From a virus, in the IMG/VR virus record IMGVR_UViG_3300010885_061023, positions 1 to 30,022 of that record: a stretch of DNA of 30,022 bases; one strand, 5' to 3'. Under the pieces are notes generated by a model. The model saw only the letters and a program-made list of their open reading frames with translations, was not told the origin of the DNA and ran no database searches. The position numbers were made by a program, and so were the translations under genes. Numbering within the stretch: the stretch's first letter is position 1; every line of letters starts with the position of its first letter. This document shows positions 2,493 through 29,933 of this stretch, piece after piece.

Positions 2493-2900
2493 TTATTCAG
2501 ATATCCAACTCTCAGGAATAGCTTTATCAGCATACTTTATTCCTATTTTATCGCACCACATAGCGTAAGTTGTCTTAGATCCCTTAGATAATTTTGCATT
2601 GCTGTTGCTAAATACAAAACGAATATCCAATTCTGGATGCTGCTCTTTGATTAGAGCGTGTTTCTTTCTATCGGCTAGAACAAAGCGACCCTTGGTTTCT
2701 ACAATGATGCCATTAGGCAACTTAAAATCTGGAAGATAGTTGTGATTAGAAGCAGGAACAGCATATTTTATAGTGTTTTTCTTTTCTTCGTATTCGTAAG
2801 GAATGTTTTTCTCGGTCAACTGATTAGCGATTGTCTCTTCTAGACCCGATCTAAAACCATTTTTTATTGCGTGGTATCTTTTACTGTAAACTTTTTTCAT
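2493..2900 (-). CDS. Endonuclease I (T7 gp3-type Holliday-junction resolvase)
   Basis: 135 aa, close to the 149 aa of T7 gp3. It resolves branched DNA before packaging and can degrade host DNA. The PD-(D/E)XK residues line up with those of T7 endonuclease I: E21 in FRSGLEE, D58 in LPDF, and E68 and K70 in IIVETKG (T7: E20, D55, E65, K67). It is the last gene of the leftward block, 11 nt after a tail gene. The start has an A-rich leader and no Shine-Dalgarno. T4 uses gp49 (endonuclease VII) for this job, so a T7-type enzyme behind T4-like tail genes is a mosaic feature. Confidence 0.85.
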   Translation of the reverse strand: MKKVYSKRYHAIKNGFRSGLEETIANQLTEKNIPYEYEEKKNTIKYAVPASNHNYLPDFKLPNGIIVETKGRFVLADRKKHALIKEQHPELDIRFVFSNSNAKLSKGSKTTYAMWCDKIGIKYADKAIPESWISE

Positions 2901-2911
2901 AATTTTTATTT

Positions 2912-3769
2912 TTAACTATCGTATCTGACTACGAAAGTCATGTCAGTATTTGGAGGAATAGGATACGCAGTAGATAGTTTGCCAACAATTAGCAGCTCGT
3001 TTCTTTCGTTATATAGCCCAACGCAAGTTGCGTAAGGTCTAAAGTCTGATCCTGTTACTGCATTTATATAAGATCCTGTTGTGGTTGATATAGTTGCGCT
3101 GGGATTTTGTGTGTAATTGAAATCGTTTTCGCTTACGTGACACCTGTACTCGTTTTGATATATTGTGGTCTCGGCTAAGAATGAACATGTTGTATACGAT
3201 CCGGTTATGCAATCTAATACAACACTTGCGCTATTGGTCATAATAACTATTCCTTGAGAGTATATTACGTTTCCTACTTGTCCGTAATTAGTAGAATTTA
3301 CTGAACCAGATATGTTTCCGTTTCCATCATCCCAAAAAGTAAAAGTATAAGGATTACTTCCTCCAGCTGTTGCTCTTATAAACAATGAATTTCTAGATAT
3401 TTGCTCACCAAAAACTGTTGGAGGAATTGCTATGCACTGTATGCGAGCATTTGATTCTGTTGGAAAATATCTATTTTCGTATTCAAAAGATCCAGAACAT
3501 GCTGTTGATTGTTGATTCCAATCCCAATAACTGGCTGAACCTATTACTGATCCAGTTATGTAATTTTGATAATATAGTTGACGAACTAATCTATAATTAA
3601 CAATGCTTTGATTTACAGATCCTGTAATTGTCACTGATCCATTAGATCCAGTAATAACAGTTATGCCATAGGTGCTATAGTCTGCGCTTGACGCAGTGAA
3701 AGCATACTTCAATTTAATAGGAGTAGTTGATATATCCGACCCCTTTAATGTATTTGATGCTCTACTCAT
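2912..3769 (-). CDS. Virion/tail-tip protein with shared C-terminal domain (paralogue of the next upstream gene)
   Basis: 285 aa, rich in Ser, Thr, Gly, Asn and Tyr with many TGS/SGS steps, a composition typical of beta-rich phage fibre or baseplate surface proteins. The last 80 residues share a pattern with the C-terminus of the 345-aa gene at 3783-4820: an NYT.NPS-like segment, a GS-rich loop, then VGLYNERNELLIVGKLS (here) against VGMYNNNNELLAVAKLS (there). The N-terminal parts do not obviously align. Gaps of 11-13 nt on both sides indicate co-transcription with the tail genes. A role in the baseplate rim, a short tail fibre or an adhesin is inferred; no named family was recognised. Confidence 0.6.
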   Translation of the reverse strand: MSRASNTLKGSDISTTPIKLKYAFTASSADYSTYGITVITGSNGSVTITGSVNQSIVNYRLVRQLYYQNYITGSVIGSASYWDWNQQSTACSGSFEYENRYFPTESNARIQCIAIPPTVFGEQISRNSLFIRATAGGSNPYTFTFWDDGNGNISGSVNSTNYGQVGNVIYSQGIVIMTNSASVVLDCITGSYTTCSFLAETTIYQNEYRCHVSENDFNYTQNPSATISTTTGSYINAVTGSDFRPYATCVGLYNERNELLIVGKLSTAYPIPPNTDMTFVVRYDS

Positions 3770-3782
3770 TTTTTATCTTGTA

Positions 3783-4820
3783 TTACCAATCTAATTTAAC
3801 CCTAATCAAAGCTTCTTTGGTGAAATCTTTTACAAGTGGTTTAGATAACTTAGCTACAGCTAATAATTCGTTATTGTTGTTGTACATACCAACTGTAGTA
3901 ATATATGTTTGAGGATTGTAAATATAATTAGAATATGCTAGATTTCCCGATCCTGAAATAAAAGACGCATTAGTTGTATAATTATATTCTGCATTTTTTA
4001 TTCTTACAAAAATATAATCTGAAGATATAGTTTCTTGAGAATTTAATTGAAAACTGCTTCCTGATTGTATTGTCTTGAGTATTTCAAACGCATTAGTATA
4101 TGCAATAGTAGAAGGTCCTGCAGTGTTATAAAAAGTCATTCCCAGTCCACCTCCTGTAGGAGCCGCTTTTAAAGCGTGAGGATTCAATACAATAAGTCCA
4201 ATATCCGGTAAAAATAATCCGTAAGATCCGGTTGCAGTGTAGCCTTTAGCTGGCGCATTTGTTATAAGTGGAGAATTTTGAGCCGTTCCATAAGATCCTG
4301 ATACAATATCGTAAGCTCTTCCACAATCTAAATATGTTACAGTAGTAGTGTCAATAGAGTTATCTGTCAATTTTAAAGTTGTAGATCCCGATACTAGAGT
4401 TAAATTGAAAGTCCCTGGAAATAAACTCTCTTTATATCTGTTTCTGTCTATTGCAATGGCAATTAGATCAGCAGACGATGTAACGCCTGTACCGAATTGG
4501 ACTTTGGTTTCGTTATCTCCGTATATTATATTTCTGTATTGACCATAATTAATTCTAGTAGGCGTTATGGATGGAACAAGATTATTGAGAGGAGCAGAAC
4601 CAGTTCCAGTTATGTGTCCATACGCTATAGAGAATTGAATAGCCGATGAAATTTCTGCAGAAGATGTGTTGTACACGTCTATATAATAATTACTCGCGCT
4701 TACACTTGCTGAACCAGTATAAAATTGACTTAATGTAGGTAAATTATTGCTCCATGCTGGAGCAGTTACTGAATCTGATGATACTACTAGATCTGTTGGA
4801 TCGAATTTTGTAAATGACAT
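3783..4820 (-). CDS. Virion/tail-tip protein with shared C-terminal domain
   Basis: 345 aa, beta-rich and low in charge, beginning MSFTKFDPTDLVVSSDSV. The middle has two Gly/Ser-rich loops and no enzymatic motif. Residues about 265-330 carry the domain shared with the 285-aa neighbour, including FVRIKNAEYNYTTN and VGMYNNNNELLAVAKLS. In other large phages this NELLAVAKLS-type module recurs in uncharacterised structural proteins (recalled, not searched). The gene lies 1 nt after the 219-aa gene, so translation is probably coupled. A baseplate-distal or fibre-attachment protein is the best guess. Confidence 0.6.
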   Translation of the reverse strand: MSFTKFDPTDLVVSSDSVTAPAWSNNLPTLSQFYTGSASVSASNYYIDVYNTSSAEISSAIQFSIAYGHITGTGSAPLNNLVPSITPTRINYGQYRNIIYGDNETKVQFGTGVTSSADLIAIAIDRNRYKESLFPGTFNLTLVSGSTTLKLTDNSIDTTTVTYLDCGRAYDIVSGSYGTAQNSPLITNAPAKGYTATGSYGLFLPDIGLIVLNPHALKAAPTGGGLGMTFYNTAGPSTIAYTNAFEILKTIQSGSSFQLNSQETISSDYIFVRIKNAEYNYTTNASFISGSGNLAYSNYIYNPQTYITTVGMYNNNNELLAVAKLSKPLVKDFTKEALIRVKLDW

Positions 4821-4821
4821 A

Positions 4822-5481
4822 TTATGATGTTACTTTTGTGATTTGTACTGGGATTGATATTCTAGCTCCTGAGTCTCTACCTATAACGGTAAGGGTTGTT
4901 TGTAAAACTAAGTTTGTTCCAAATAAAGTGTTAACTGTTGTTGCAGACAAGTTGATTGTTGTGCCAATTACGGTAGAGCTTATGTTTGTTCCTATAGTTG
5001 TTGTTGTATTTAAAGCATTTGCTTCAGCGGTGTTTATACCAACTCCTATAAATGTTGACATCGTACGAACGTCTCCAATAGTAGCAACATATCCAGATTG
5101 CTCAAAAGTTGTGTTAGAGCCTAAATAATTTAAAGTTTGAGGAGTAACTGATAGAGACGATCCTTGTTTGATCGTAATGCTACTATAACCCAAATCCAAT
5201 ACAGGAAGTTTAGCGGTTCCTCTTGGAAGAGTTAACAATTTGTATCTCATGATCTCTTGATCGTTTGGATAGGCCTGTAATATAGGCATATTTTCTATGG
5301 CTTCTCCGTAGAAAGCCGATCCTGATGGATGACTTGGATTGTATAAACTGTAATCAATCTCATCGTCTGATAGTGAGAATTGAGTGATTTGAAAAGAGCC
5401 GTCGTTTCTTGCTAATAACTCCCTTCCTTTTTTTGTTAGTATTGCGTCTACTACGACTGATGTACTACTTAAATATGACAT
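4822..5481 (-). CDS. Virion structural protein (baseplate/tail-fibre associated)
   Basis: 219 aa. The N-terminal 70 residues (VVDAILTKKGRELLARND, FQITQFSLSDDEIDYSLYN) are soluble and mixed alpha/beta. The rest is a Thr/Asn-rich beta region (residues 120-219) with repeated short TTT..GT segments. The KKGRELLARN...ITQFSLSDDEIDYSLYNP signature is one I associate with conserved, unannotated structural proteins of large myoviruses. The gene starts a new sub-unit after a 78-nt gap that carries an ATATTTATT box, and is followed closely by two further tail-tip genes. Function beyond virion structure is unknown. Confidence 0.6.
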   Translation of the reverse strand: MSYLSSTSVVVDAILTKKGRELLARNDGSFQITQFSLSDDEIDYSLYNPSHPSGSAFYGEAIENMPILQAYPNDQEIMRYKLLTLPRGTAKLPVLDLGYSSITIKQGSSLSVTPQTLNYLGSNTTFEQSGYVATIGDVRTMSTFIGVGINTAEANALNTTTTIGTNISSTVIGTTINLSATTVNTLFGTNLVLQTTLTVIGRDSGARISIPVQITKVTS

Positions 5482-5559: not shown

Positions 5560-7245
5560 TTAATTTGTGTATACTTCCCATCCTAAAGAATATTGCAATG
5601 CGGTTTTGTCTGTTTGTCCTACCGCAGAAGGAGGCGCGTTTCCACTGCCACTCAAATTCAAATATCCGTTAGTTGCTCCAGAATATCTAAAATCATGTAA
5701 TATAGAATTTACTGATCCTGTTGATAGCGAATTGTTACTGGCATCAAAATAAGTTAAAGAAACAGGAAAATAACTACTAGATCCAACTATAGTTCCGCTA
5801 GCGCTTGTATATGTAGTTATAGCGTTATCATTACAATAAAAAGTTGATAATTTCGTATTATATAAACTAGGAATTATACCGTTTAATTTATTATTTGAAC
5901 AATAAAATGCAGTTAGCGCTAATGAAGATGAAAGTTCTGGAAGACTACCAGTTAAAGCGTTGTTTTGACAATAGAAGTATTCGAGAGAATTCATGTTTTG
6001 TAAAGGTGGTATACTTCCAGTTAATGCATTATAACTACAATTAAAAGATAGTAGAGAATATTGATTTTGAGGTATAATACTTCCTGATAAAATATTGTAA
6101 GAACAATCAAAATATTTAAGGTTTAAAGACGAAGATAGATTTGGAATGCTACCAGTTAATCTATTAGCGCCACAATCCAAATATACTATCGAATTAGGAA
6201 GTACTGATATTACGTCAGCTATGCTACCTGATACTAGATTTAGTCCGAAGGATATAGTGGTAATTCCTGAGGCAGACAAATAAGAATATTGTCTTATGCT
6301 TCCAGATAAATTTCCATGCTGATCATAAATTTCTAGAGTCTTTAGATTTGGAAGTTTGGTTGTATCTGGAAATCTACTTAGCGAACTTGCGTTGGCTTTT
6401 AATTCTGTAATTCCATTCAATCCCGAAAAGAATACATTTTGCAATGAAGAATAACCTATAGAATTGTCGTCGTCTATTTTTGTTGCACTAGAAAGATTAG
6501 ATCCTCCTATATAAAATGTACTATTAGATTGAGAATAAAATGTACTATTAGATTGAGATAAGAAAGATCCTGATATTTTTAAATATGAGTTCCAACTATC
6601 TAAACTAGATGTATTCGCTACGGGGTAATAAGGTGCTTCGTACGTTAATGCAATATATGGATAATTAATAATCGATCCTGAAAAAGTGTAACTATAAATA
6701 GGCATAGATGAATTAAAACTCGTAGAAATATTACTATTGAATGAAGAAGTGTAGTATATTGAGCTATTCAGAGAACTATTAATTACTTGTAGATATGAAG
6801 AGTAAAAAACAGAACTTCCTGATATTTTTATGACGTAATTAGAACCTGATGAAATTGTAATCGGTACTACTGATGATGAATACGAAGAAGAAGTTAATCC
6901 AACTATTTCTAATTGACTAAAAGTACTAGTATCGCCGATAACGCTAAAATCTGCTATAGCAAAAGATTTTATTTTTACTGATGCTGTAAAATTATTATTA
7001 CTTAAAGTATAATAATATATATTAGTCTGCTCTAATGGAAAAGATGCATAAATAAGGCTTCCGCTTTTAACGTAAACCCTTATAGATCCAGAATTAGCGG
7101 ACGCGCTAATTGATGCTGTTATTGCAGACAAGACATCTAACGTAACGTCTTGATAAATAGTTTCATTAACAGAACTATTATCCGGCACAATTCTTATATT
7201 TGAAACAACAGATCCAGATGCGTATGTATAGTATAAATTTGTCAT
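5560..7245 (-). CDS. Leucine-rich-repeat tail fibre/receptor-binding-type protein
   Basis: 561 aa. Residues 1-270 are a Ser/Tyr/Asn-rich beta region; residues about 290-520 hold at least six leucine-rich repeats of 22-25 residues with the pattern L..F.C..N.LTGSIP.L (for example FDCSYNILSGSI, FNCSYNALTGSIP, FYCQNNALTGSLP, FYCSNNKLNGIIP). The C-terminus has an NGYLNLSGSGN turn and a GWEVYTN end, likely a cap. The Cys-bearing LRR form is common in Bacteroidota surface proteins. LRRs bind proteins or glycans, so host-receptor recognition is the likely role. The start overlaps the stop of the 1716-aa gene by 1 nt, tying it to the tail operon. It contains a 24-bp tandem duplication (6511-6558). Confidence 0.75.
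   Translation of the reverse strand: MTNLYYTYASGSVVSNIRIVPDNSSVNETIYQDVTLDVLSAITASISASANSGSIRVYVKSGSLIYASFPLEQTNIYYYTLSNNNFTASVKIKSFAIADFSVIGDTSTFSQLEIVGLTSSSYSSSVVPITISSGSNYVIKISGSSVFYSSYLQVINSSLNSSIYYTSSFNSNISTSFNSSMPIYSYTFSGSIINYPYIALTYEAPYYPVANTSSLDSWNSYLKISGSFLSQSNSTFYSQSNSTFYIGGSNLSSATKIDDDNSIGYSSLQNVFFSGLNGITELKANASSLSRFPDTTKLPNLKTLEIYDQHGNLSGSIRQYSYLSASGITTISFGLNLVSGSIADVISVLPNSIVYLDCGANRLTGSIPNLSSSLNLKYFDCSYNILSGSIIPQNQYSLLSFNCSYNALTGSIPPLQNMNSLEYFYCQNNALTGSLPELSSSLALTAFYCSNNKLNGIIPSLYNTKLSTFYCNDNAITTYTSASGTIVGSSSYFPVSLTYFDASNNSLSTGSVNSILHDFRYSGATNGYLNLSGSGNAPPSAVGQTDKTALQYSLGWEVYTN
6511..6558. repeat. 24-bp perfect tandem duplication inside the LRR protein gene
   Basis: Two identical 24-bp units lie head to tail (6511-6534 and 6535-6558) and are in frame, so SQSNSTFY is encoded twice in a row at about residues 231-246. 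This looks like recent slippage in a Ser/Asn-rich linker before the repeat region. Confidence 0.9.
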
Positions 7246-10200
7246 TATGCTTGTGTATTTATATTATTTTGTAAATCAGTATTAAAGTTCGTGAATATTT
7301 CTCCTATCTTAGATTTTACAGAATTGTTAGCATCCTGAGGAATTAATATGGTTTGAGAAACTTCTCCGTCTTTTTTAGAAAAATTTACTATAACGGATGT
7401 TTCATCTTGTTTTGGTCTTAGAATCGCAAAGTCTGATTGAGGATTCAGATTTTGTTGATTTACTTGCCTATCTAATTTAATTGCATAACTTGAATACGTC
7501 TGTGATGAGTATCCATACATATTCCAATCTGTAATTCTATAGGAGTCTCCTGCGCCTATTGTCTCACTTGTTATAGAATCCTGTATAAATACATAGTATT
7601 TCCCATCTGGAAAATAGGTGGATACTGTAGTATCAATATACGTGCGATTAGGCATTAGTTTTAAAATAAGTCCATTATTGGCAAGTTTTCTACTGTAGGG
7701 GGGAGTGGGAGACAGGTAAGCTCCATCAATTCTTATGTAAGTAACCGTTGGATTTTGTAAAATAAAATTGAATTTATTTGCCAAGTACGCATCGAATACA
7801 AAGAAAGAAGAGTTATACCCTCCGCCAAACAAATTATTGTAAAAACCATTTAGATTTTGAAAAATCAAAGCAGAATCATCGTCAGATTGATTAAGACCAG
7901 TATATGTAGTAATATCGTATGTAGTAGCTCCGGATGAAATCACATTATAGTAATCTATTACTGGACTATTAAAGGAACCAAACCTAATAAAATCACCGGG
8001 TTTTATAAAAGTGGTATCCACAATCGGTGAATAATAGTTACTAGTTGGATTAGTTGGCACAAATATAGATGAAGTATTAAATAAGTCAAATAGTTTTGGA
8101 GAGGGTATTAAAGTGTCTAATGAGATTTTTGAAAATGCGTCAACGCTGTAATCTATATATGTAGACGTGTTATAAGAAAAAAATGGAATGAATTTATTGT
8201 AAATTTGAACAAAGTTAGTAGATGGATTATTAGCTGTAGTTGAATTTAATCTTACTTTCCAACCAGTGGTAAGTCTAAAAAGACCTTGAAAATCTACCGC
8301 AAATATAGAGTATCTTATTATATCTCCTGCTTGTAAGTTCAAGCTAAAATTAGTTAAACTAATATTTATGTTCTGGGCAGATGGAGTTAAAAATACTCTA
8401 TTGTTTGGCATTGTCACCGTGCCTCCTGTATAAGTTACTACGGGACTGTTTGAAATTTTTTCAATAGTCCAAGAATTTCCCTGATCTGTGCTTTTTTCTA
8501 ATAGTCCAAATAGTTTTAAATAACAATTTCCATTATCTTCATTTGTATTTACCCAATCTTCATAATAACTAGCATTGTTAAATGCTGTAGAATTAGCGAG
8601 AAAGTCAAACATCATATCGTGAGAAAACGATATATCAATACGTCCGGAATCAGGAGCTAGATACGTATAAGCGCCTTTTTTATAACTGTTTTCATCTGCA
8701 TTGATTAAATTCAATTTTGCATCGATATAGTCAAATTTTATTCTAATTGGTATCCTATATGCTTTTAGTGATGAATTTTTTAACGTTCTGTTATGATTGG
8801 AAATAGCGTACGATGACGGTAAACCAGTAAAATTCATGTCCGAAATTGGTGTAGTTGTAGTATTGACTACGTTCGTTGCTAAATAACTATTCCATGCAGT
8901 ATATCCAAAAGAAATATCACAGAGTTTTGGATCTGCTGAATCGATAGGCGCTGACCTATCATACACTCTATCAGACGTAGATTTTACGTCTCCATAAACT
9001 CCACTATACCCTACTTCAGCGATATTTGTGGTGTAAGGCAGAGCGACGCCTCTCACATTAGTTTGTGCATAAGCATCAGTATTTATAAAATATCCATCAG
9101 GATCAGTGGGTAAAATTTGATTTTCTGAACTATTATCAAGAGCTTGATATGTTAGCCAATTACCTGACCCATATACAATACTTGTATATATTCTTTTTTC
9201 GTAATTTGGAGCATAAAATCCCTCGTAAGATTGACTAACTTCAACATAATCCGTATACGTAAAATTTAGCCTTTCATATCCCTCTCTATATATAATAGGA
9301 TCATAAGAGACACCTCCTCTAAAAATAGATTTTGTTCCGTCAAGTATTTTCTGATTAGTTGGTTTATTTACATCAGATATAGATAAAATTACTTGATCTC
9401 CTGTTTTAAAAGTGTTTTGTACTTCGAAAAGATTATCGTTTTGTAAAGATAGATCTGTAATTTTTTGATTTGAATCTATAAGATACTTTAAGTATATAGT
9501 TGTCTTATCTGGAAAATTAAGAGCTTTAATTGGTATATTTTTTACCCATCCCACTTTAAAACTATTGCGATCTATAGCTGCTGTATTTCCGTATGAAGAA
9601 TCTCCTGGCCAAGTGTTTGACGCTGATGAATAAGTGTTATAGGTTCTACTAGTGGTCTTAGATCCGTAGTATCTTGGAATAGTGCTTCTTTGAATATTAT
9701 AGTTATAATCTTGCAATTCAGCATACGGACTCATAGGATTTGTATACGTTGCAAAATTATCTATAGCAGAATCTTTGATAGATTTCGTTACTATTCCAAA
9801 ATTAACCGGTACTCTGGAATTGTTTGTGTAATCTAAATCTAATCTTCTTTGAGATCTTACCGCCGCTGTAACATTTTGATAAAGCGCCCCAAAATTTACT
9901 CTGCTAGAACTCATTGTAGAATTTTGAGACAACTCAGTTTGATCTCCTACGCTATTCAGACTAGTTGCAACCAGCGTTGTGCCTTGAAATTCTCCAGTAT
10001 AATTTTCAAATCCGTATGAATCATTCACAGTAATATATCCAAGAGACGAAGTAATTGTTTTATTTTGAGTAGTTGGCCAAGTATAACTAGTCGCTGCAGA
10101 ACCAGATATCGATATCATGTCTATAGATTGACTATAATTTCTATGAGTTTCTACTTCAGGTTCGTTTCTTGCATATTTATTCCTCTCTAAAACGTGTGGT

Positions 10201-12395
10201 TTTACTATTATACCTGTAGATATATTAGTTCTTGCGGGCACAAAATCCTTAATCATTTTAAACAAAGAATTATTATAAAACTTTATAAGTCTTACATACT
10301 CTGCGATGCTATGAGGTTCGTTATACGAAGAAGAAAAATAATTGTTTCTATATCGATCTAAAGTATCATATGAGCTAGAATATCTTAAAGCAGGATTGCC
10401 TATTAATTGATCAATGGAATACACTAATGAAGACGTAATATTTGCATTTAGAGTATCGGCTGGAGAAAATCCTACTTCAACGTTTAAAGAATTTTTTCTG
10501 TAATTGTTATCGAACTGTTGTAAAGTAGATTTTGGAGACAGCAAAGATTGGCTCAATTCGTTTGGAGTAACTATATTGATTTTGGTATCGTTTAATTCAA
10601 ATATGTCTTCTCCTCCTAAAGCGGTTCCACCATATTCGTTTACTGTGAGTATAGAATCTGGTATGCCATAACAAGCTATCAAGGCTTTTACGCCTCTTTC
10701 TGTGCCTCTTGTCTTTAGCAAATAAGGAAGATTGTGATACAACCTTTTGTTTATTTCTTTTTGAATTTGATCATAAGGCAAACTAGCTAAGCTAGAAGAT
10801 ATAATTTTTATGTTTTTTTCAGACCCAGTAGGAAAAGAACTTGTTGATCCAGTAGGAAGAGAATTTCTTACTACATTATCTATACCAAATAAACTATAGT
10901 ACGCAGAGTCTGATAGATTTGTGTTTGTGTACAACTCTATGCCGAGTCCCTTTAAAGCGTCTGAAACCAAATCCATAGATATGCCAGTATTAGGATCGTT
11001 TGTTGCATTAAACCTACTACTCACATCTTTGTAATAGATCCAAATATTATCAAAGTGTTGACCTATCATATCTAAAAAGGTAACATAAGGTTGATTGTTT
11101 GGATCGTCTAACAAATACTGAGGCGCGCTAACGCTCAATAAATCTTTATTGGTTTGATCGTATAAAGATGCGGAATATAATATGGATAATTTAGTAGGTA
11201 TTGGCGGAGTAGTTGGTGTTCCCAACCAATTTACAGCTAGAGAAGAAGTTACAGAATGTAAACTATACGGTTTAGCTGAATTTATTTTTGGCCAAGCATA
11301 TGTTCCTGATGTATAATATAAGTAATATTCGTAGTTATCAAATTTTTCTATTATTGAATCTATATTAGTCTGTAGAACATTTATAGAAGCGGTAGTAATA
11401 GATCTAACTTGAGAATTTCCTGTTATTGCAGATTGAGATACTATTTGAATATTATAATTCTCTATGAGTCCAACTTTATACGCAAAATTACTAATTCTTT
11501 CAGTAGCGCTTGAGAAGTGTATAAAATTATTAAAATCTGTATAATCCGTGTTTATCGCAATGGCTTTATCATCGTAGTAAGACATTAATTGCCTTATTGA
11601 AGATGAGACTTGAGCTGAAAATAAATTATTATATGAATAATATGGAGTTGTTTGACCTATTTTTTGAGCTACTTCTATTTTATAATTAGGGCCTCTTAAT
11701 CTCTTTGTTGTGTCTATTTGTTCGGCTTCTATAGACACATTAACCACAAAAGAGACGGGTTCTGATAATTTATCAACTATCCACAACTGAGACTTTATAT
11801 CAAAATCGCTTGGTAGTGGTTCATATAATTTTATAAGTATGTAACTGCCTTGATCATCGTTTACATATGCTGCATTTACCGCAACAATTAGATTATTATC
11901 TCCAAAATTAAGATAGAAATCAGAATAGTAATTTTTTTGAGATATGTAATTTTGATAAGCTCCAAAGCCAGATCTCATAGTATCTCCACTCAATTGTTGA
12001 GAGGACAGTTTCAATTCTAATCGACTAGGCGAGATATCTTTTATCCAATAAAAAACTCCGTATTTTGAATTAAATAGGTTTTTTAATATGTTGTATTGAA
12101 TAGTAACTGATCCTCTATTGTATCCTTTATCTGATACATCTTTTTGAGGATCCACTAATATAGAAGTGAATTTATTAGTCCCAGAGTTTACCTCAGACGT
12201 TTTATAATAGCTTTGTAAATTATAATCATAACTCAATATAGATCCCGCATCGTCTGAAATAAATGCTTCTATGTAATCATTAGGATCTCCGAAAGTAGTA
12301 TTAATATATGTACTATTTATTAGAGATAAATCCCTATCAGAATATTTTTGAATAGATTTTCCTTCTCCATTATATAATATGTTAACTATTTCCAT
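7245..12395 (-). CDS. Giant (1716 aa) baseplate/tail-tip structural protein
   Basis: 1716 aa, the largest gene here. Composition is Asn/Ser/Tyr/Thr-rich and Cys-poor with no membrane segment. About residues 445-500 contain YVTFLDMIGQHFDNIWIYYK. About residues 555-610 contain EINKRLYHNLPYLLKTRGTE, RGVKALIACYGIP and SILTVNEYGG, a signature I associate with very large conserved virion proteins of big myoviruses. The C-terminal 600 residues are beta-rich. Its position, two genes after the gp6-like gene, corresponds to T4 gp7/gp8/gp10, the outer wedge; T4 gp7 (1032 aa) is the nearest size analogue, but no homology is visible by eye. It is probably a wedge or fibre-connecting scaffold. The start has an A-rich leader and lies 14 nt after the 113-aa gene. 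Confidence 0.65.
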   Translation of the reverse strand: MEIVNILYNGEGKSIQKYSDRDLSLINSTYINTTFGDPNDYIEAFISDDAGSILSYDYNLQSYYKTSEVNSGTNKFTSILVDPQKDVSDKGYNRGSVTIQYNILKNLFNSKYGVFYWIKDISPSRLELKLSSQQLSGDTMRSGFGAYQNYISQKNYYSDFYLNFGDNNLIVAVNAAYVNDDQGSYILIKLYEPLPSDFDIKSQLWIVDKLSEPVSFVVNVSIEAEQIDTTKRLRGPNYKIEVAQKIGQTTPYYSYNNLFSAQVSSSIRQLMSYYDDKAIAINTDYTDFNNFIHFSSATERISNFAYKVGLIENYNIQIVSQSAITGNSQVRSITTASINVLQTNIDSIIEKFDNYEYYLYYTSGTYAWPKINSAKPYSLHSVTSSLAVNWLGTPTTPPIPTKLSILYSASLYDQTNKDLLSVSAPQYLLDDPNNQPYVTFLDMIGQHFDNIWIYYKDVSSRFNATNDPNTGISMDLVSDALKGLGIELYTNTNLSDSAYYSLFGIDNVVRNSLPTGSTSSFPTGSEKNIKIISSSLASLPYDQIQKEINKRLYHNLPYLLKTRGTERGVKALIACYGIPDSILTVNEYGGTALGGEDIFELNDTKINIVTPNELSQSLLSPKSTLQQFDNNYRKNSLNVEVGFSPADTLNANITSSLVYSIDQLIGNPALRYSSSYDTLDRYRNNYFSSSYNEPHSIAEYVRLIKFYNNSLFKMIKDFVPARTNISTGIIVKPHVLERNKYARNEPEVETHRNYSQSIDMISISGSAATSYTWPTTQNKTITSSLGYITVNDSYGFENYTGEFQGTTLVATSLNSVGDQTELSQNSTMSSSRVNFGALYQNVTAAVRSQRRLDLDYTNNSRVPVNFGIVTKSIKDSAIDNFATYTNPMSPYAELQDYNYNIQRSTIPRYYGSKTTSRTYNTYSSASNTWPGDSSYGNTAAIDRNSFKVGWVKNIPIKALNFPDKTTIYLKYLIDSNQKITDLSLQNDNLFEVQNTFKTGDQVILSISDVNKPTNQKILDGTKSIFRGGVSYDPIIYREGYERLNFTYTDYVEVSQSYEGFYAPNYEKRIYTSIVYGSGNWLTYQALDNSSENQILPTDPDGYFINTDAYAQTNVRGVALPYTTNIAEVGYSGVYGDVKSTSDRVYDRSAPIDSADPKLCDISFGYTAWNSYLATNVVNTTTTPISDMNFTGLPSSYAISNHNRTLKNSSLKAYRIPIRIKFDYIDAKLNLINADENSYKKGAYTYLAPDSGRIDISFSHDMMFDFLANSTAFNNASYYEDWVNTNEDNGNCYLKLFGLLEKSTDQGNSWTIEKISNSPVVTYTGGTVTMPNNRVFLTPSAQNINISLTNFSLNLQAGDIIRYSIFAVDFQGLFRLTTGWKVRLNSTTANNPSTNFVQIYNKFIPFFSYNTSTYIDYSVDAFSKISLDTLIPSPKLFDLFNTSSIFVPTNPTSNYYSPIVDTTFIKPGDFIRFGSFNSPVIDYYNVISSGATTYDITTYTGLNQSDDDSALIFQNLNGFYNNLFGGGYNSSFFVFDAYLANKFNFILQNPTVTYIRIDGAYLSPTPPYSRKLANNGLILKLMPNRTYIDTTVSTYFPDGKYYVFIQDSITSETIGAGDSYRITDWNMYGYSSQTYSSYAIKLDRQVNQQNLNPQSDFAILRPKQDETSVIVNFSKKDGEVSQTILIPQDANNSVKSKIGEIFTNFNTDLQNNINTQA

Positions 12396-13830: not shown

Positions 13831-15666
13831 TTAAAATGTTACTACACGACCTTGAATATCAGTATTAGGATATTTTATTTCAAATATGCATGGATCTAGT
13901 GATGGATATACGACTCCATTTATTGTTGCACCCGGAATATCGTAAGAATAGTTTGAATATCCATTAGAAGTTCCTGATTTATTTACTATTTCTACATTTT
14001 TAACTGTTTGTACGCCTTCAACCTGATCTAATAAAGAATATATGTTAGATAAATTTATTGGTTGATTTATTTGATAATTTCCTATATTGAAATAATCTTG
14101 AACCTTTAATATGCATCTTGCTATAACGTCTTGTCCCGAGAAATTTGGGTTTATTATTACATTAAAATTACAACCTATATTAACTATATAAGCTGATTTT
14201 ATATCAACAGCGTCAGTCATAAGTCTGTAATCAGTTAGATAAGACTGGAGGTTTTGTAATAATAATGTCGATGGCGACGCTAAATTTCCGTTGCTATCTA
14301 AACTCAACACATATAGACTAACTAAAACTTGATCTCTTTGAGTCATATCTTTTCCTATAGAGTTCATAAAAGTCGAATCGTCTTTGGTAACGTATGCTTT
14401 GGATATTTTTCCAAATTTTGCATCCATGCTCAATGCACGAGCCATATAATCTTGCTGAGTTACCGCTCTCATTTGAGTAGGAAATTGAGCTAGTGTATTT
14501 AATCTTAATTCTTGAATTGTATCTCCGTCTCCGCCGCCTGTAGCAGGCGAAGGATTGTTAGTAGCAACTGTATTTTGTCTAGTTAGATTATTTCCAGTTG
14601 CGGTAAATGATACAGGGATCGTTAATTGATTCGCTTGAGCGTTAGAAATTGCTCCTCCACCCACTAAATACTTAATTGTTAATGTTGTGTTTTTTGGAGC
14701 CAATCCATAAGTTTGAGTAGTAACAAAATTAGTCGGATCAAAAGACTGCGTAAAAGTACTTAAACCTGCTGTTTGGCCGACGCTAACTGAATTAGGATTG
14801 GGAATTATTACTGAATCTGCTACTGAATTTACCCCTGATCCAAATTCAATCACTAAAGATTCATTTGATTGAAATCTAGACGTGAATCTTCTTGGTACGT
14901 ATAATTTTTGGATTAAATACGGAACCTGATCAGTTGTAGATGGATTTGTATTAGCCACCGAATTTATTATATAGTCTTGAGCTAAATAGGGCACTTCGTA
15001 CCATTTGTTTCCACTACTATCAGTTACATCAACTATTGAAATTATATTAGGATCATTTATGGTTATAGATGAAAATCTTTGAGCATTTGTGAAATCGTAT
15101 GTAGATGTTTTTACTTGACCTGAGATTGCTTTTGCTTTCTTTGTCAATAGATACGTTTGTGGTACTCCAGATACAGACTGATACACTTCTATGGTTGTTG
15201 GATCATAAGAAGACGATGTTGTAAAATCTACTTTTTCAGGAATATAAAAATAAACTGAATTATCTACATTTGACTGTATTTGCATCCCTCCTTGGATTGT
15301 TACAGCTGTAGTAAAGTCTGGATAGTTTAATCCACCCGCAGTATTAGCAAGTATTGTTTGATAAACATTCACGTCGGCAATTGCAGCAGATGTTACTTTA
15401 GGTCTATATCCAAGCATATATGCCATAGTATATAGATTGTTCGGTTGTTTAGCGTACTGTAAAAAAGTTTCTTGCAATTGATTATCTAGATAAAAAGAAA
15501 GAACATCACCAATATAAGCAGCCATTTCTATAAACATAGAGCCTGGAGAAGCTTGATTAAAATCATTATAGACTGTTGGATAGTAAGCCTTAGCATATTC
15601 TATCAAATCAGATTTAAATGTATTAAAATCTTTATTTAAATATTTTATGTCTTTTTTTTCTGCCAT
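13831..15666 (-). CDS. 6: Baseplate wedge protein gp6-like
   Basis: 611 aa, against about 660 for T4 gp6. The gp6/J-type family builds the ring of wedge dimers around the hub of contractile tails. The N-terminus shows the family signature: FNQASPGSMFIEMAAYIGDV, LSFYLDNQLQETFLQYAKQP and MAYMLGYRPK (residues about 37-92). The middle is a long beta region. Residues about 375-420 have GDGDTIQELRLNTLAQFPTQ and a conserved-looking RAVTQQDYMARAL segment, typical of J/gp6 proteins. The C-terminal domain ends with a repeat-poor beta region. It lies 2 nt downstream of the gp25 gene, the usual order in myoviruses. Confidence 0.88.
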   Translation of the reverse strand: MAEKKDIKYLNKDFNTFKSDLIEYAKAYYPTVYNDFNQASPGSMFIEMAAYIGDVLSFYLDNQLQETFLQYAKQPNNLYTMAYMLGYRPKVTSAAIADVNVYQTILANTAGGLNYPDFTTAVTIQGGMQIQSNVDNSVYFYIPEKVDFTTSSSYDPTTIEVYQSVSGVPQTYLLTKKAKAISGQVKTSTYDFTNAQRFSSITINDPNIISIVDVTDSSGNKWYEVPYLAQDYIINSVANTNPSTTDQVPYLIQKLYVPRRFTSRFQSNESLVIEFGSGVNSVADSVIIPNPNSVSVGQTAGLSTFTQSFDPTNFVTTQTYGLAPKNTTLTIKYLVGGGAISNAQANQLTIPVSFTATGNNLTRQNTVATNNPSPATGGGDGDTIQELRLNTLAQFPTQMRAVTQQDYMARALSMDAKFGKISKAYVTKDDSTFMNSIGKDMTQRDQVLVSLYVLSLDSNGNLASPSTLLLQNLQSYLTDYRLMTDAVDIKSAYIVNIGCNFNVIINPNFSGQDVIARCILKVQDYFNIGNYQINQPINLSNIYSLLDQVEGVQTVKNVEIVNKSGTSNGYSNYSYDIPGATINGVVYPSLDPCIFEIKYPNTDIQGRVVTF

Positions 15667-15668
15667 TT

Positions 15669-16082
15669 TTATGCATTTTGTATCGCTATAACAGCAGTGT
15701 CTGTTTCAGCTGTATTTAATAATATATAACTAAATTCTATGATTATTGAATTGTTATTTGGATCTCCTTTTACGTTTAATGTGCTTATTTCAATGTTAGG
15801 AAAATTAGCTTCTATTTGAGACTTTAACGTAGCTTTTAAATTATCTATAGTATCAGAGCTAATTTGTTCAAATATCCTAGATCTCAATCCAGCTCCAAAA
15901 GAGGGATTGAATGGTCTCTCTCTTTTATCTGTTAGTAGATAATTTATTATATTATACTTGGTCTGTTCTTTAGTTGTATACACTGATTGAAAAGCGCTAG
16001 GATAACTAAATGGAAGCTTTACTCCTATTGCTGTAGAAGGCTTTTGATCTAGCGGAGATATTTTTTTTAAGTTATAAGCCAT
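15669..16082 (-). CDS. 25: Baseplate wedge protein gp25 (GPW/gp25 family)
   Basis: 137 aa, matching the 132 aa of T4 gp25. Despite the family's lysozyme-like name this is a structural wedge protein that starts sheath assembly. The core signature INYLLTDKRERPFNPSFGAG and LRSRIFEQ (residues about 46-73) contains the conserved RPFNP.FG motif, in T4-like proteins part of the element that contacts gp6 and gp53. It is followed by IDNLKATLKSQIEANFP and a final beta strand (IIIEFSYIL). It lies 2 nt from genes on both sides, in an operon with gp6. Confidence 0.93.
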   Translation of the reverse strand: MAYNLKKISPLDQKPSTAIGVKLPFSYPSAFQSVYTTKEQTKYNIINYLLTDKRERPFNPSFGAGLRSRIFEQISSDTIDNLKATLKSQIEANFPNIEISTLNVKGDPNNNSIIIEFSYILLNTAETDTAVIAIQNA

Positions 16083-24847: not shown

Positions 24848-25648
24848 ATGATACGATTGTCGAGTATACTTTTAGAAGCTATGGGTCAACCGATAGCAAT
24901 ATTTTTAGCCGGATCAGCCGGAGCTGGAAAGTCTACATTCAGATCGGAATTTCTGGATTCTATAGCTGATTTTAAAATTCTTAATATAGATGATGAATAT
25001 GAGCCATTATTACAAAAAGCAGGTTTACCTTTAGATTTTAGAAAGTTTAAAGGACCTGAAGATTTATCAGCTGCAGGTAGTGCTATGGCGCAAGCTCAAA
25101 AACTTCACAGATCTAAGTATGAGAAGTCAAAAACAGACATGTCTCATATAATAATTGATGGTACTGGCGGTTCTTCTAACGAAATTATAAAAAAGAAAAA
25201 AGAGTTAGAAGCACTAGGATACAAAACCGCTATGGTACTTATATTTGTCCCTCCAGATATATCTCTAAATAGAAATATTAAAAGAGGAGAAGAAGGCGGT
25301 AGAACTCTTATGCCTGCAATTATTCTGAGAAGCTGGTCAGCTATGTTTAAAAACATCGACATATTTAAAAAAGAATTTGGAGAAGATTTTATGTTATATA
25401 AAGCATATAAATCAGGAGAAGAGATATTTCCTGATTTTGATCCATCTAATCCACAAGTAAAACAACAATTTTTTGATCCATTTAAAGTAAAAGGCAAAGA
25501 AAAAACCCCTGAGGAAAGAGAGAAAATGAATCAAAAAATAAAAGATCTAAATAGTGATATATCTACACAAATGCAGATGATAAAAGATTTAGATTTCGAT
25601 GATGCATCAGAGATAAGAGCAAAAATAAATAGATTAGCAAATGCGTGA
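24848..25648 (+). CDS. Tagged zeta-toxin-like P-loop kinase
   Basis: 266 aa. The N-terminus MIRLSSILLE followed by A has the L-x-E tag. A P-loop kinase follows at once: Walker A GSAGAGKST (22-30), an aspartate-rich stretch (NIDDEYEPLL, 46-55), the IIDGTGGS strand (102-109) and lid arginines in NRNIKRGEEGGRT (141-153). The layout matches zeta toxins and related small-molecule or protein kinases, which phosphorylate UDP-N-acetylglucosamine or other targets. The C-terminal 60 residues form a charged coiled coil (EKTPEEREKMNQKIKDLN). The tag suggests delivery in the virion; no epsilon-type antitoxin is seen nearby. It overlaps the next gene by 8 nt. Confidence 0.72.
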   Translation: MIRLSSILLEAMGQPIAIFLAGSAGAGKSTFRSEFLDSIADFKILNIDDEYEPLLQKAGLPLDFRKFKGPEDLSAAGSAMAQAQKLHRSKYEKSKTDMSHIIIDGTGGSSNEIIKKKKELEALGYKTAMVLIFVPPDISLNRNIKRGEEGGRTLMPAIILRSWSAMFKNIDIFKKEFGEDFMLYKAYKSGEEIFPDFDPSNPQVKQQFFDPFKVKGKEKTPEEREKMNQKIKDLNSDISTQMQMIKDLDFDDASEIRAKINRLANA

Positions 25649-26231
25649 TTATAGTCAAATAGGTGTAGAAATAATTCAAGAGCTTTTAAAAGAAGTAAAT
25701 GATACCACAGGTCCATGTTTTTTTCCTGGCAAATTTAAACCTCCTCACAAAGGTCACTTCGAAGCAGCAAAGTATCTTACTGAAAAGCCATATATAAATA
25801 AAGTATATATAGTTATTAGCAATGTTACAAAATTTGGAATAACGCCTAAAGACAGTTTAACAATTTGGCAAGATTATTTAGCAGCAGAACCAAATAATAA
25901 GATAGAAGTTAAGATTTCAACAGAAGGCACTCCTATAAAAGATATATTTAGATTCGCAGCTCAAAATGAAGACTTAAAAAGTATATATGTTGCATCGGCA
26001 AAAGAAGAAGCTGATGATTTAGGCTATTTCGATAAGCTTCAAGAGAAATTTCCCAACATTAAAAAAGAAGTTATTCCAGATCAATTCGGTAGAATATCAG
26101 CAACTCAAATGAGACAAGCTGTAAAAAATGGTAATTTTGACGAATTTTGCAAATTTGTACCAGCTTCATCGTATAACAAAGGCAAAGCAAAAGAGGTTTT
26201 TGGTTTATTAACAAAAATATTAGAGAAATAA
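25641..26231 (+). CDS. NMN adenylyltransferase-like nucleotidyltransferase, probably tagged
   Basis: 196 aa. The HxGH-type motif lies in GKFKPPHKGHFEAAKYL (H36, H39) and the ISxTxxR motif in ISATQMR (152-158); both are the ATP-binding and catalytic signatures of the NadM/NadR/CoaD nucleotidyltransferase superfamily. The substrate is probably NMN, nicotinate mononucleotide or a pantetheine-type phosphate; this cannot be fixed by eye. An N-terminal extension of about 22 residues (MRDYSQIGVEIIQELLKE) ends in L-K-E and fits the tag of neighbouring genes. It overlaps the kinase gene by 8 nt and abuts the next gene with no gap, so the three form one translation unit. An NAD-related enzyme beside an ADP-ribosyltransferase-like cargo gene is suggestive. 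Confidence 0.75.
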   Translation: MRDYSQIGVEIIQELLKEVNDTTGPCFFPGKFKPPHKGHFEAAKYLTEKPYINKVYIVISNVTKFGITPKDSLTIWQDYLAAEPNNKIEVKISTEGTPIKDIFRFAAQNEDLKSIYVASAKEEADDLGYFDKLQEKFPNIKKEVIPDQFGRISATQMRQAVKNGNFDEFCKFVPASSYNKGKAKEVFGLLTKILEK

Positions 26232-27125
26232 ATGCAAAACCAAGAGAGATTAGATATAATAAAAGACTTTGTAGACTACTGTCGAATTAATTTAGAAATA
26301 GAACAGCTTCCTGAAATAGAATTTACTGAAGACAAATCTTGGGCCACTAATTCAAGAAGTTTTGGACACTATATTCCTTCAAATAACTTTTTAAAAGTTT
26401 ACATAGGAAACAGAAATTTAGCAGATATACTTAGAACTCTTTCTCATGAACTTGTTCATCACAGACAAAACGAATTAGGAATGATAAAATCAAATTCTGG
26501 AGAAACTGGATCAGAGATAGAGAATCAAGCGAATTCAATATCGGGTATTTTAATGAGAAATTATGGCAAGACAAACGAATTGATATATGAATCTAAGTTA
26601 ACTTCTATGGCAGAGTCTATAATAAAATCTAGATTCACTATATATTGCGACATGGACGGAGTTTTAACTGATTTTGAAGCTCAATTCGATCACTATTATG
26701 GAATGAATCCAAGAGAATACGCTAAATTAAAGGGACCAGAGCTCATGAAAAAAGCTGTAGACGATGTTGGATTAGATTATTGGGCAAAAATGCCTCTATT
26801 TCCTGGTGCGCTTGAATTATGGGCATACATATCTCAATATCAACCAATAATTTTATCTAGTCCAAGCACATTTAAATACGCGAAAAAAGGAAAAGATATA
26901 TGGATTGCAAATAATTTAAAGCCGGCTCCAAGCGATATACTATACAAACAGACAGGCCACAAAGAAGAAGCTATCCAGGGACTTCCAGAGTCTGAAATAA
27001 AGCGCTCTATTCTTATAGACGATTACTACAGAAACCTAGCTCCTTGGAAAGAACTGGGAGCTATCGGAATCACTCACAAATCAGCACAACAAACAATTAA
27101 TATATTAAAAAAGTTTCGATTATGA
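26232..27125 (+). CDS. Fusion of HExxH metallopeptidase and HAD-type nucleotidase
   Basis: 297 aa with two domains. Residues 1-115 look like a small zinc peptidase of the kind fused or associated with phage DNA: H72-E-L-V-H76 (LSHELVHHRQNELG) provides two ligands and the EIENQAN helix (95-101) the likely third. Residues 135-297 are a HAD hydrolase: D140-x-D142-G (YCDMDGVLTDFE), S209/S210 (IILSSPS), a Lys near 219-221 and D263-D264 (ILIDDYYRN), close to the 5'-nucleotidase type C family. The joining segment is helical (SKLTSMAESIIKSRF). It starts with no gap after the nucleotidyltransferase gene. The two activities may meet in nucleotide salvage or host protein removal; which is unknown. Confidence 0.8.
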   Translation: MQNQERLDIIKDFVDYCRINLEIEQLPEIEFTEDKSWATNSRSFGHYIPSNNFLKVYIGNRNLADILRTLSHELVHHRQNELGMIKSNSGETGSEIENQANSISGILMRNYGKTNELIYESKLTSMAESIIKSRFTIYCDMDGVLTDFEAQFDHYYGMNPREYAKLKGPELMKKAVDDVGLDYWAKMPLFPGALELWAYISQYQPIILSSPSTFKYAKKGKDIWIANNLKPAPSDILYKQTGHKEEAIQGLPESEIKRSILIDDYYRNLAPWKELGAIGITHKSAQQTINILKKFRL

Positions 27126-28948: not shown

Positions 28949-29278
28949 TTGAAACACGTACACGAATTGAATGAAGGCGAATTCTGTCCAATGTGTTTAA
29001 AAGCATATATCTTAGAACATATTAATAAACTAGAAGAGGCAGAATATCAAGGAAGAGATGTTCCATTAGGCAAACCAATGGCAGGAGATGTAAAGAAGTT
29101 TAAAGTGTATGTTAAAAATAACAAAGGCAATGTAGTTAAAGTTAATTTTGGTCAAAAAGGAGTTAGAATAAAAAAGAACAATCCTAAGAGACGCAAAAGT
29201 TATAGAGCGAGACACGGATGCGATAAGAATCCTGGCCCTCGTTGGAAAGCAAACTATTGGTCTTGTAGAAAATGGTAA
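28949..29278 (+). CDS. Basic conserved phage protein with TTG start
   Basis: 109 aa. The only start that preserves the N-terminus is TTG at 28949, directly after the preceding TAA with no gap. The C-terminal 70 residues are strongly basic and conserved-looking: VPLGKPMAGDVKKFKVYVKN, then KKNNPKRRKSYRARHGCDKN and PGPRWKANYWSCRKW. Cysteines at C14 and C17 (EFCPMC) and two near the C-terminus could bind zinc. The opening MKHVHELNE followed by G contains an L-x-E, a weaker tag match. I recall the RWKANYWSCRKW ending from T4-like and other large phages; its function is unknown, with nucleic-acid binding likely from charge. Confidence 0.65.
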   Translation: MKHVHELNEGEFCPMCLKAYILEHINKLEEAEYQGRDVPLGKPMAGDVKKFKVYVKNNKGNVVKVNFGQKGVRIKKNNPKRRKSYRARHGCDKNPGPRWKANYWSCRKW

Positions 29279-29280
29279 AT

Positions 29281-29577
29281 ATGAAAAAAATGCACAGTCT
29301 TATACAACTTTTAGAATTAGGAGATTATTCAGCGGCAAGAACAACCCAAACCGATGTTAATCCAGAAACTGGAAAAATATCTTGGGACGTATCTTATAAA
29401 CCAGACTTTACTCTAATACTTAAAAAATTAGATGAGGTAATAAAAAATATACAAGCCGCAGAAAAAGATGAACATATCTCAGATCCGGTATTAAATCAGA
29501 GTTTGAAATCTTTGAAAACAACAAAACGAACAATAGAAAACAGAATATTAGAAAAATACCCTGAATTTTTAAAATAG
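29281..29577 (+). CDS. Tagged small helical protein
   Basis: 98 aa from ATG 29281. Another in-frame ATG at 29272 lies inside the end of the previous gene; 29281 gives an N-terminus like its tagged neighbours, MKKMHSLIQLLE, ending in L-x-E. The body is a short TTQTDVNPETGKISWDVSYK segment and helices with a heptad pattern (LILKKLDEVIKNIQAAEKD). It has no catalytic motif. The stop TAG shares its last base with the GTG start of the next gene. It may be a small internal head protein. Confidence 0.6.
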   Translation: MKKMHSLIQLLELGDYSAARTTQTDVNPETGKISWDVSYKPDFTLILKKLDEVIKNIQAAEKDEHISDPVLNQSLKSLKTTKRTIENRILEKYPEFLK

Positions 29578-29933
29578 TGATTAAATTATTACAAATATTA
29601 AATGAAATTCTACAAGAGGAAAAAGCAGATCGCTGTCTTCGTATAGCTAGAAGAAAGTATGATAAGCCTGGAGCTTACAGATCTGGAGCAATAGTTAGGT
29701 GTAGAAAAGGAGATATTTGGAAAGATTTAAAGGAAGAAGAAAAAGAATCTATTCATAAATGGTTCTCCAGACAAGGAGCGCCAGGGTCCAGTTCAGGATG
29801 GGTCGATTGTAACACTTGCCGTGAAGTAGAAGGAAAAAAACAGTGCAAAGCGTGCGGTAGGGAGAAAGGAGAAAAAAGATCTGAAAAACCTAGATGCAGA
29901 CCAACTCCTGCAGCATGTAAAAGAAAAAAATAA
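29577..29933 (+). CDS. Tagged Cys-rich basic protein (DUF5872-like) with GTG start
   Basis: 118 aa starting with GTG at 29577, whose G is the last base of the preceding TAG. The N-terminus MIKLLQILNE has the L-x-E tag. The body matches, from memory, the DUF5872 type found in phages and giant viruses: RCLRIARRKYDKPGAYRSGA, IVRCRKGDIWKDL, HKWFSRQGAPGSSSGWVDCN, then cysteine pairs C-x-x-C (NTCREVEGKKQCKACGR) and KPRCRPTPAACK. It likely binds zinc and nucleic acid. Adding the tag to this core suggests a packaged protein. The last gene before the partial one at the window edge, 6 nt away. Confidence 0.65.
   Translation: MIKLLQILNEILQEEKADRCLRIARRKYDKPGAYRSGAIVRCRKGDIWKDLKEEEKESIHKWFSRQGAPGSSSGWVDCNTCREVEGKKQCKACGREKGEKRSEKPRCRPTPAACKRKK

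Follow-up and report, generated by a model that had tools for sequence, protein, structure and literature searches.

What is a gene for a leucine-rich repeat (LRR) protein doing among the tail genes of a phage? The question is raised by a stretch of 30,022 nucleotides, hereafter the window, which is an IMG/VR virus record (IMGVR_UViG_3300010885_061023). A preliminary description had singled out in it a putative tail protein with a beta-rich N-terminal half and at least six cysteine-containing LRR units, and its coordinates are exactly those of one open reading frame. Table 1 lists the parts of this gene and its neighbours.

Table 1. Parts of the LRR gene and neighbouring genes, with positions in the window
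Feature	Position	Strand	Remarks
gp25-like baseplate wedge protein	15669..16082	minus	Pfam GPW_gp25 1.3e-6; PHROG 8.5e-16
gp6/J-like baseplate wedge protein	13831..15666	minus	PHROG baseplate wedge 4e-18
1716-aa upstream tail-cluster protein (big1716)	7245..12395	minus	residues 1-1000 conserved, C-terminal 700 hypervariable
LRR adhesin-like gene	5560..7245	minus	561 aa
N-terminal module	6991..7245	minus	residues 1-85; M-x-NLYY..YASFP..TNxY; candidate virion-attachment domain
Middle beta-rich region	6475..6930	minus	residues 106-257; kept in all five slot LRR proteins; low-confidence model
24-bp exact in-frame tandem duplication	6511..6558	.	SQSNSTFY twice, in the linker preceding the LRRs; one copy in aligned relatives
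LRR solenoid	5695..6405	minus	residues about 281-517; 8 clear and about 2 degenerate units
C-terminal LRR cap	5563..5775	minus	residues 491-561; ends GNxxPSxxG..K..L..GWxVxTN; shared with other phages, e.g. Nonlabens phage P12024S gp10
219-aa downstream tail-cluster gene (p219)	4822..5481	minus	highly conserved; far side of the slot
345-aa tail-cluster gene (p345)	3783..4820	minus	order conserved
285-aa tail-cluster gene (p285)	2912..3769	minus	often longer, variable in relatives

The repeat protein and its genomic setting

Pfam LRR_4 (E 6e-13) and LRR_1 (2e-7) both match the protein above their gathering cut-offs, and the LRR_4 match, with 49 bits against a cut-off of 27, places it among LRR proteins. 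It contains six regularly spaced repeat pairs, against no more than one in each of 5000 shuffles of the same composition. A repeat HMM derived from five relatives (consensus LxxFDCSNNxLTGSIPxLss) recognizes eight units over residues 328-517, each scoring 13-29 bits and mostly 22-25 residues apart; in the window, the unit has 22-23 residues and the form LxxFxCSxNxLTGSIP. The earlier observation of repeats is thus confirmed.

The fold was addressed by structure prediction, the check proposed along with the original claim. An AlphaFold2 model obtained from a three-sequence input reaches a pLDDT mostly of 80-94 over residues about 330-561, with lower values in a loop near 484-492. Its strands start at about residue 281 and follow each other every 22-31 residues, those at about 281 and 303 being in register, which gives about 10 turns. 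Solved LRR ectodomains of plant type (MIK2, RGFR1, BRI1, and PGIP) share both the LxxNxLTGxIP repeat and the solenoid and align with Z scores of 20-25 over about 260-300 residues, the best being MIK2 (Z 24.6, rmsd 2.6, 284 residues). The LRR half of the protein is thus confidently predicted to fold as a solenoid. The likeness to plant receptors concerns the repeat type only, as the window protein has no whole-protein homology to them, no kinase, and no signal peptide. Matches in BFVD, mostly to giant-virus LRR proteins, were likewise set aside as likeness of fold only.

The first 250 residues are not resolved in the full-length model, and a separate model of the N-terminal half is all-beta with a pLDDT of 46. 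The all-beta prediction agrees with the beta-rich half described earlier, while its pLDDT speaks against leaning on it; these low-confidence models were also counted against an adhesin, because the attachment role gains no support from a fold. Hydropathy alone, used without a dedicated predictor, revealed no export signal or membrane anchor in the 561 aa (maximum over 19 aa, 1.64). The protein is therefore not obviously secreted or membrane-bound, which speaks against its being exported or displayed at a surface, and without a hydrophobic N-terminus it does not look like the exported LRR surface proteins of bacteria of the BspA or internalin type.

The gene lies on the minus strand in a block that reads gp25-like wedge, gp6/J-like wedge, p355, p113, big1716, LRR gene, p219, p345, and p285, and its ATG overlaps the big1716 stop by one base (..GCATAATGACA..; TAATG). 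The block is called tail/baseplate because of the two wedge proteins and of the annotation of Flavobacterium phage vB_FspM_immuto (Immutovirus, NC_055915). This phage has the same order of gp25, gp6/J, p355, p113, the big protein, p219, p345, and p285, and a J homologue 47.5% identical to that of the window. No PHROG family matches big1716, p219, or p355, and profile searches of solved structures returned none for big1716 and p219 and a chance-level match only for p345. Gene context nevertheless supports the earlier designation as a probable tail protein, and a place within the tail/baseplate block is one expected of a phage receptor-binding protein. Microcystis phage Mel-JY01 (L083), with a cyanobacterial host on record, has this tail module in common with immuto; its host assignment, or its host range, may merit a second look. 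A gene for phage endonuclease I was noticed where the tail operon ends (window 2493-2900, Pfam 8.5e-56), with a homologue at the same place in contigs L014 and L021.

Variation at the slot

A single-protein search of viral contigs matched nothing, and relatives came from neighbour-gene and alignment searches. They were gathered through the J protein and p219, and the slot was defined as the interval between the 1716-aa homologue and p219. About 115 related contigs, some of them overlapping or duplicate, were read at this slot. The big-protein homologue directly adjoins p219 in 73 of them, another ORF occupies the slot in 33 (in several cases what seems to be a split-off C-terminus of the big protein), L126 alone encodes a 202-aa protein with the N-terminal module and without LRRs, and eight, including the window, carry a slot LRR gene and represent five distinct phages. 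In immuto, the slot differs in holding an unrelated-looking 403-aa gene (gp108). LRR_4 has no match anywhere in ten long related contigs, the complete immuto genome included, and immuto also has no cap genome-wide. A tree of p219 requires four changes (gain or loss) of the LRR label, at least two of which are forced by well-supported branches. The LRR gene is an optional, patchily distributed, minority trait of this phage clade, and its absence from most related phages was counted against the adhesin reading.

Two other loci deserve mention here. In L105, an ORF adjoining the slot (7412-8188) resembles by eye a Hint/intein fragment (TYIANGVLTHNK ... CLTPNTQLEKYDGSIVLLKDV). Among the ten long contigs, two cap matches lie outside the slot in the one behind L064. 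L064 encodes a BspA-type LRR ORF (2-1666, Pfam LRR_5 6e-29) with a 144-aa LRR and cap ORF nearby; both lie far upstream of the baseplate block, and L064 lacks the slot gene.

The occupied slots differ in what they encode. The LRR proteins measure 561 aa in the window, 595 in L199, 608 in L085, 1019 in L087 (identical to the cut-off L003), and 1081 in L166/L167. The earlier proposal to compare repeat number among related phages proved informative: the repeat HMM finds 9 units in L167, about 10 in L199, 11 in L085, and 22-23 in L087, so that the number varies from 9 to 23 at the same site. All five have the N-terminal module, which is also that of the LRR-free protein of L126 (HMM E 3.7e-12). 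L087 and L167 have an inserted segment between this module and the middle region, and L167 continues after the LRR cap with a DUF5122 beta-propeller (Pfam 8e-80). A conserved, putatively anchoring part followed by a variable distal part is the layout expected of a receptor-binding protein.

LRR modules had been said to expand by duplication, which would give a way to change receptor. At the DNA level, L087 still has tandem arrays, with periods of 69/138 bp and about 72% matches, as has L168, an unrelated viral contig (69 bp, 76% matches), whereas in the window TRF detected only the 24-bp linker duplication and no tandem array in the LRRs. Growth by duplication is thus supported in relatives, an actual change of receptor is conjectural, and a recent tandem expansion within the window's own LRR gene was rejected.

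Divergence from the closest relative, L085, is focal. The J segment (95% identity), p355 (96%), p113 (93%), p219 (95%), p345 (85%), and p285 (92%) are conserved, whereas the LRR gene is 50% identical, against the 85-96% of flanking genes. The big1716 protein is 81-96% identical over residues 1-1000, 19-49% over residues 1001-1700, and 62% in its last 16 residues. Two adjoining hypervariable segments amid conserved genes would be the pattern expected of host-recognition parts, and a divergence exceeding that of flanking structural genes is again as expected of a receptor-binding protein, although this comparison is of one pair, which selection and recombination fit alike.

Origin of the repeats and known LRR proteins of phages

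The cysteine-containing repeat had been likened to surface proteins of Bacteroidota, and the likeness is supported. Patterns derived from the LRR repeats, run over 84,980 species genomes of bacteria and archaea, placed the nearest bacterial relatives at nine loci, all nine in Bacteroidota. Within the Flavobacterium class, 66 of 99 genomes have LRR_4, compared with one of 14 controls. The suggestion that the repeats came from the host fared less well. A search for the nearest bacterial LRR found no close one; the best match is 31% identical and has a different consensus (SLPxEIG), and the phage LRR cap occurs in only four of 395 genomes of the Flavobacterium class. A recent capture of the gene from the host was rejected for want of any close bacterial LRR in the genomes scanned.

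A partial precedent is offered by gp10 of Nonlabens (Persicivirga) phage P12024S (NC_018271), annotated as 'similar to putative tail fiber protein'. Like the window protein, it ends in LRR-like units and the same cap (GGTNATPSATG..GWTVNLN), and a PHROG family of tail proteins matches its other half (1.8e-52). Unlike the window protein, it belongs to another type of phage, has another N-terminal region, and carries a few degenerate repeats without a Pfam LRR match. Its sequence shows that this C-terminal module also exists outside the window's clade, and by analogy it supports a tail adhesin. Viral contig L168 has adjacent LRR genes of 610 and 581 aa, with the same C-rich consensus and cap as the window. 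They differ in their N-terminal region, which has VNWGEG..NHTFG and looks PKD-like by eye, and lie near a terminase, a tail role being only possible.

LRRs had been called uncommon in phage adhesins, which agrees with their minority status in this clade and less well with the existence of other phage proteins with LRRs or LRR caps. The open-access literature searched contained no paper on an LRR phage adhesin. Vibrio jumbo phage pir03 lists a BspA-family LRR ORF (PMC7765460). Among isolated phages, tblastn returned only the records 'Listeria phage LM 4-11-1/4-14-1' and a Leptospira phage LRR gene, which were rejected as precedents. The matches in LM 4-11-1 and LM 4-14-1 are internalin-like LRRs, and these records are probably bacterial contigs deposited as phage, because many unannotated pieces share one name. 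Finally, several large viral-labelled contigs (L172, L175, L177, and L179-L181) have small ORFs lined up one after another in long rows, and several of these ORFs match LRRs weakly.

Candidate roles of the LRR protein and other genes of the window

Host recognition by phages has mostly been described through trimeric beta-fibres and tailspikes. In T4-like long-tail-fibre adhesins and other hypervariable receptor-binding proteins, a variable recognition part lies beside conserved tail genes and undergoes modular swaps. The window locus resembles these systems without a known sequence relation, an LRR solenoid taking the place of the trimeric beta-fibre. Given the solenoid signature and its confident model, the position in the operon, the patchy occupancy of the slot, the modularity, and the focal divergence, the LRR protein is probably a receptor-binding adhesin, accessory and modular, of a phage with a contractile tail and, probably, a host among the Bacteroidota. 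From these observations we infer incorporation into the virion, late expression, anchoring, receptor binding, and an effect on host range. The gene would be expressed late, its translation coupled to that of the tail gene before it, and its product would be mounted on the baseplate or a tail fibre through the conserved N-terminal module. The solenoid would project outward, its curved face binding a surface protein or glycan of the host. Lineages would acquire, drop, or exchange the C-terminal part, giving other LRR counts, a beta-propeller, an LRR-free version, or no gene, and such swapping would let the phage follow receptor variation.

More tentatively, and with somewhat less than an even chance, Bacteroidota contractile phages may share a dedicated, exchangeable LRR-adhesin slot, in which the N-terminal module stays fixed while duplication and swapping alter the number of LRRs and the domains appended and so retarget host recognition, as a counterpart of the diversification seen in lamprey VLRs and plant LRR receptors. 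If true, an LRR solenoid encoded at an optional tail slot of fixed position would be a separate recognition scaffold. The natural repeat-number variants make the role of the protein testable, and LRR-cap proteins annotated as unknown in environmental Bacteroidota phages may be adhesins as well.

The same observations could be read otherwise. An unlikely alternative, though one to be taken seriously, is a structural or decoration protein of the virion, the solenoid serving a big1716 fibre as spacer, brace, or tip-cap, without receptor specificity of its own. The LRR gene follows big1716 directly with an overlapping start, its varying repeat number would suit an element that sets length, and it forms one hypervariable segment with the big1716 C-terminus. 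However, most relatives with big1716 and p219 lack the LRR gene, which is thus not needed for assembly, and recognition accounts better for the strong divergence seen in close relatives. The adjacency of the hypervariable big1716 C-terminus to the hypervariable LRR gene, with conserved neighbours on both sides, would also suit a fibre assembly factor or tip adhesin like T-even gp38, acting on or capping that C-terminus and co-varying with it; this is improbable, as many phages with a full-length, variable big1716 have no such gene. An equally slim chance is given to a non-virion protein made during infection and acting in the host or after lysis, as a decoy, superinfection blocker, or moron. 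LRRs bind proteins, and an accessory distribution is typical of such genes, but this one lies mid-way along a tail operon that is conserved, has a start overlapping the gene before it, encodes no export signal, and has a cap related to that of the P12024S tail-family protein. Least credible is a recently captured bacterial surface-protein gene of unsettled role, since, common as LRR_4 repeats are in the Flavobacterium class, the nearest bacterial match is distant, a phage-specific N-terminal module in five divergent phages implies long residence, and the protein has no export signal.

Elsewhere in the window, several plus-strand genes (270-2301, 24848-26231, and 29272-29933) start with leaders that resemble one another and end in motifs of the L-x-E type (MKLMSLLSES, MKLMHLLLEA, MKQNMKLLKLIIES, MIRLSSILLEA, and MIKLLQILNEILQEE). 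T4-type capsid-targeting sequences are cut by the prohead protease, and by analogy the products of these genes may be packaged internal proteins. Another gene (26232-27125), without a Pfam match, apparently fuses, judged by eye, a zincin-like domain (HELVHH) and a HAD/5'-nucleotidase-like domain (CDMDGVLTD).
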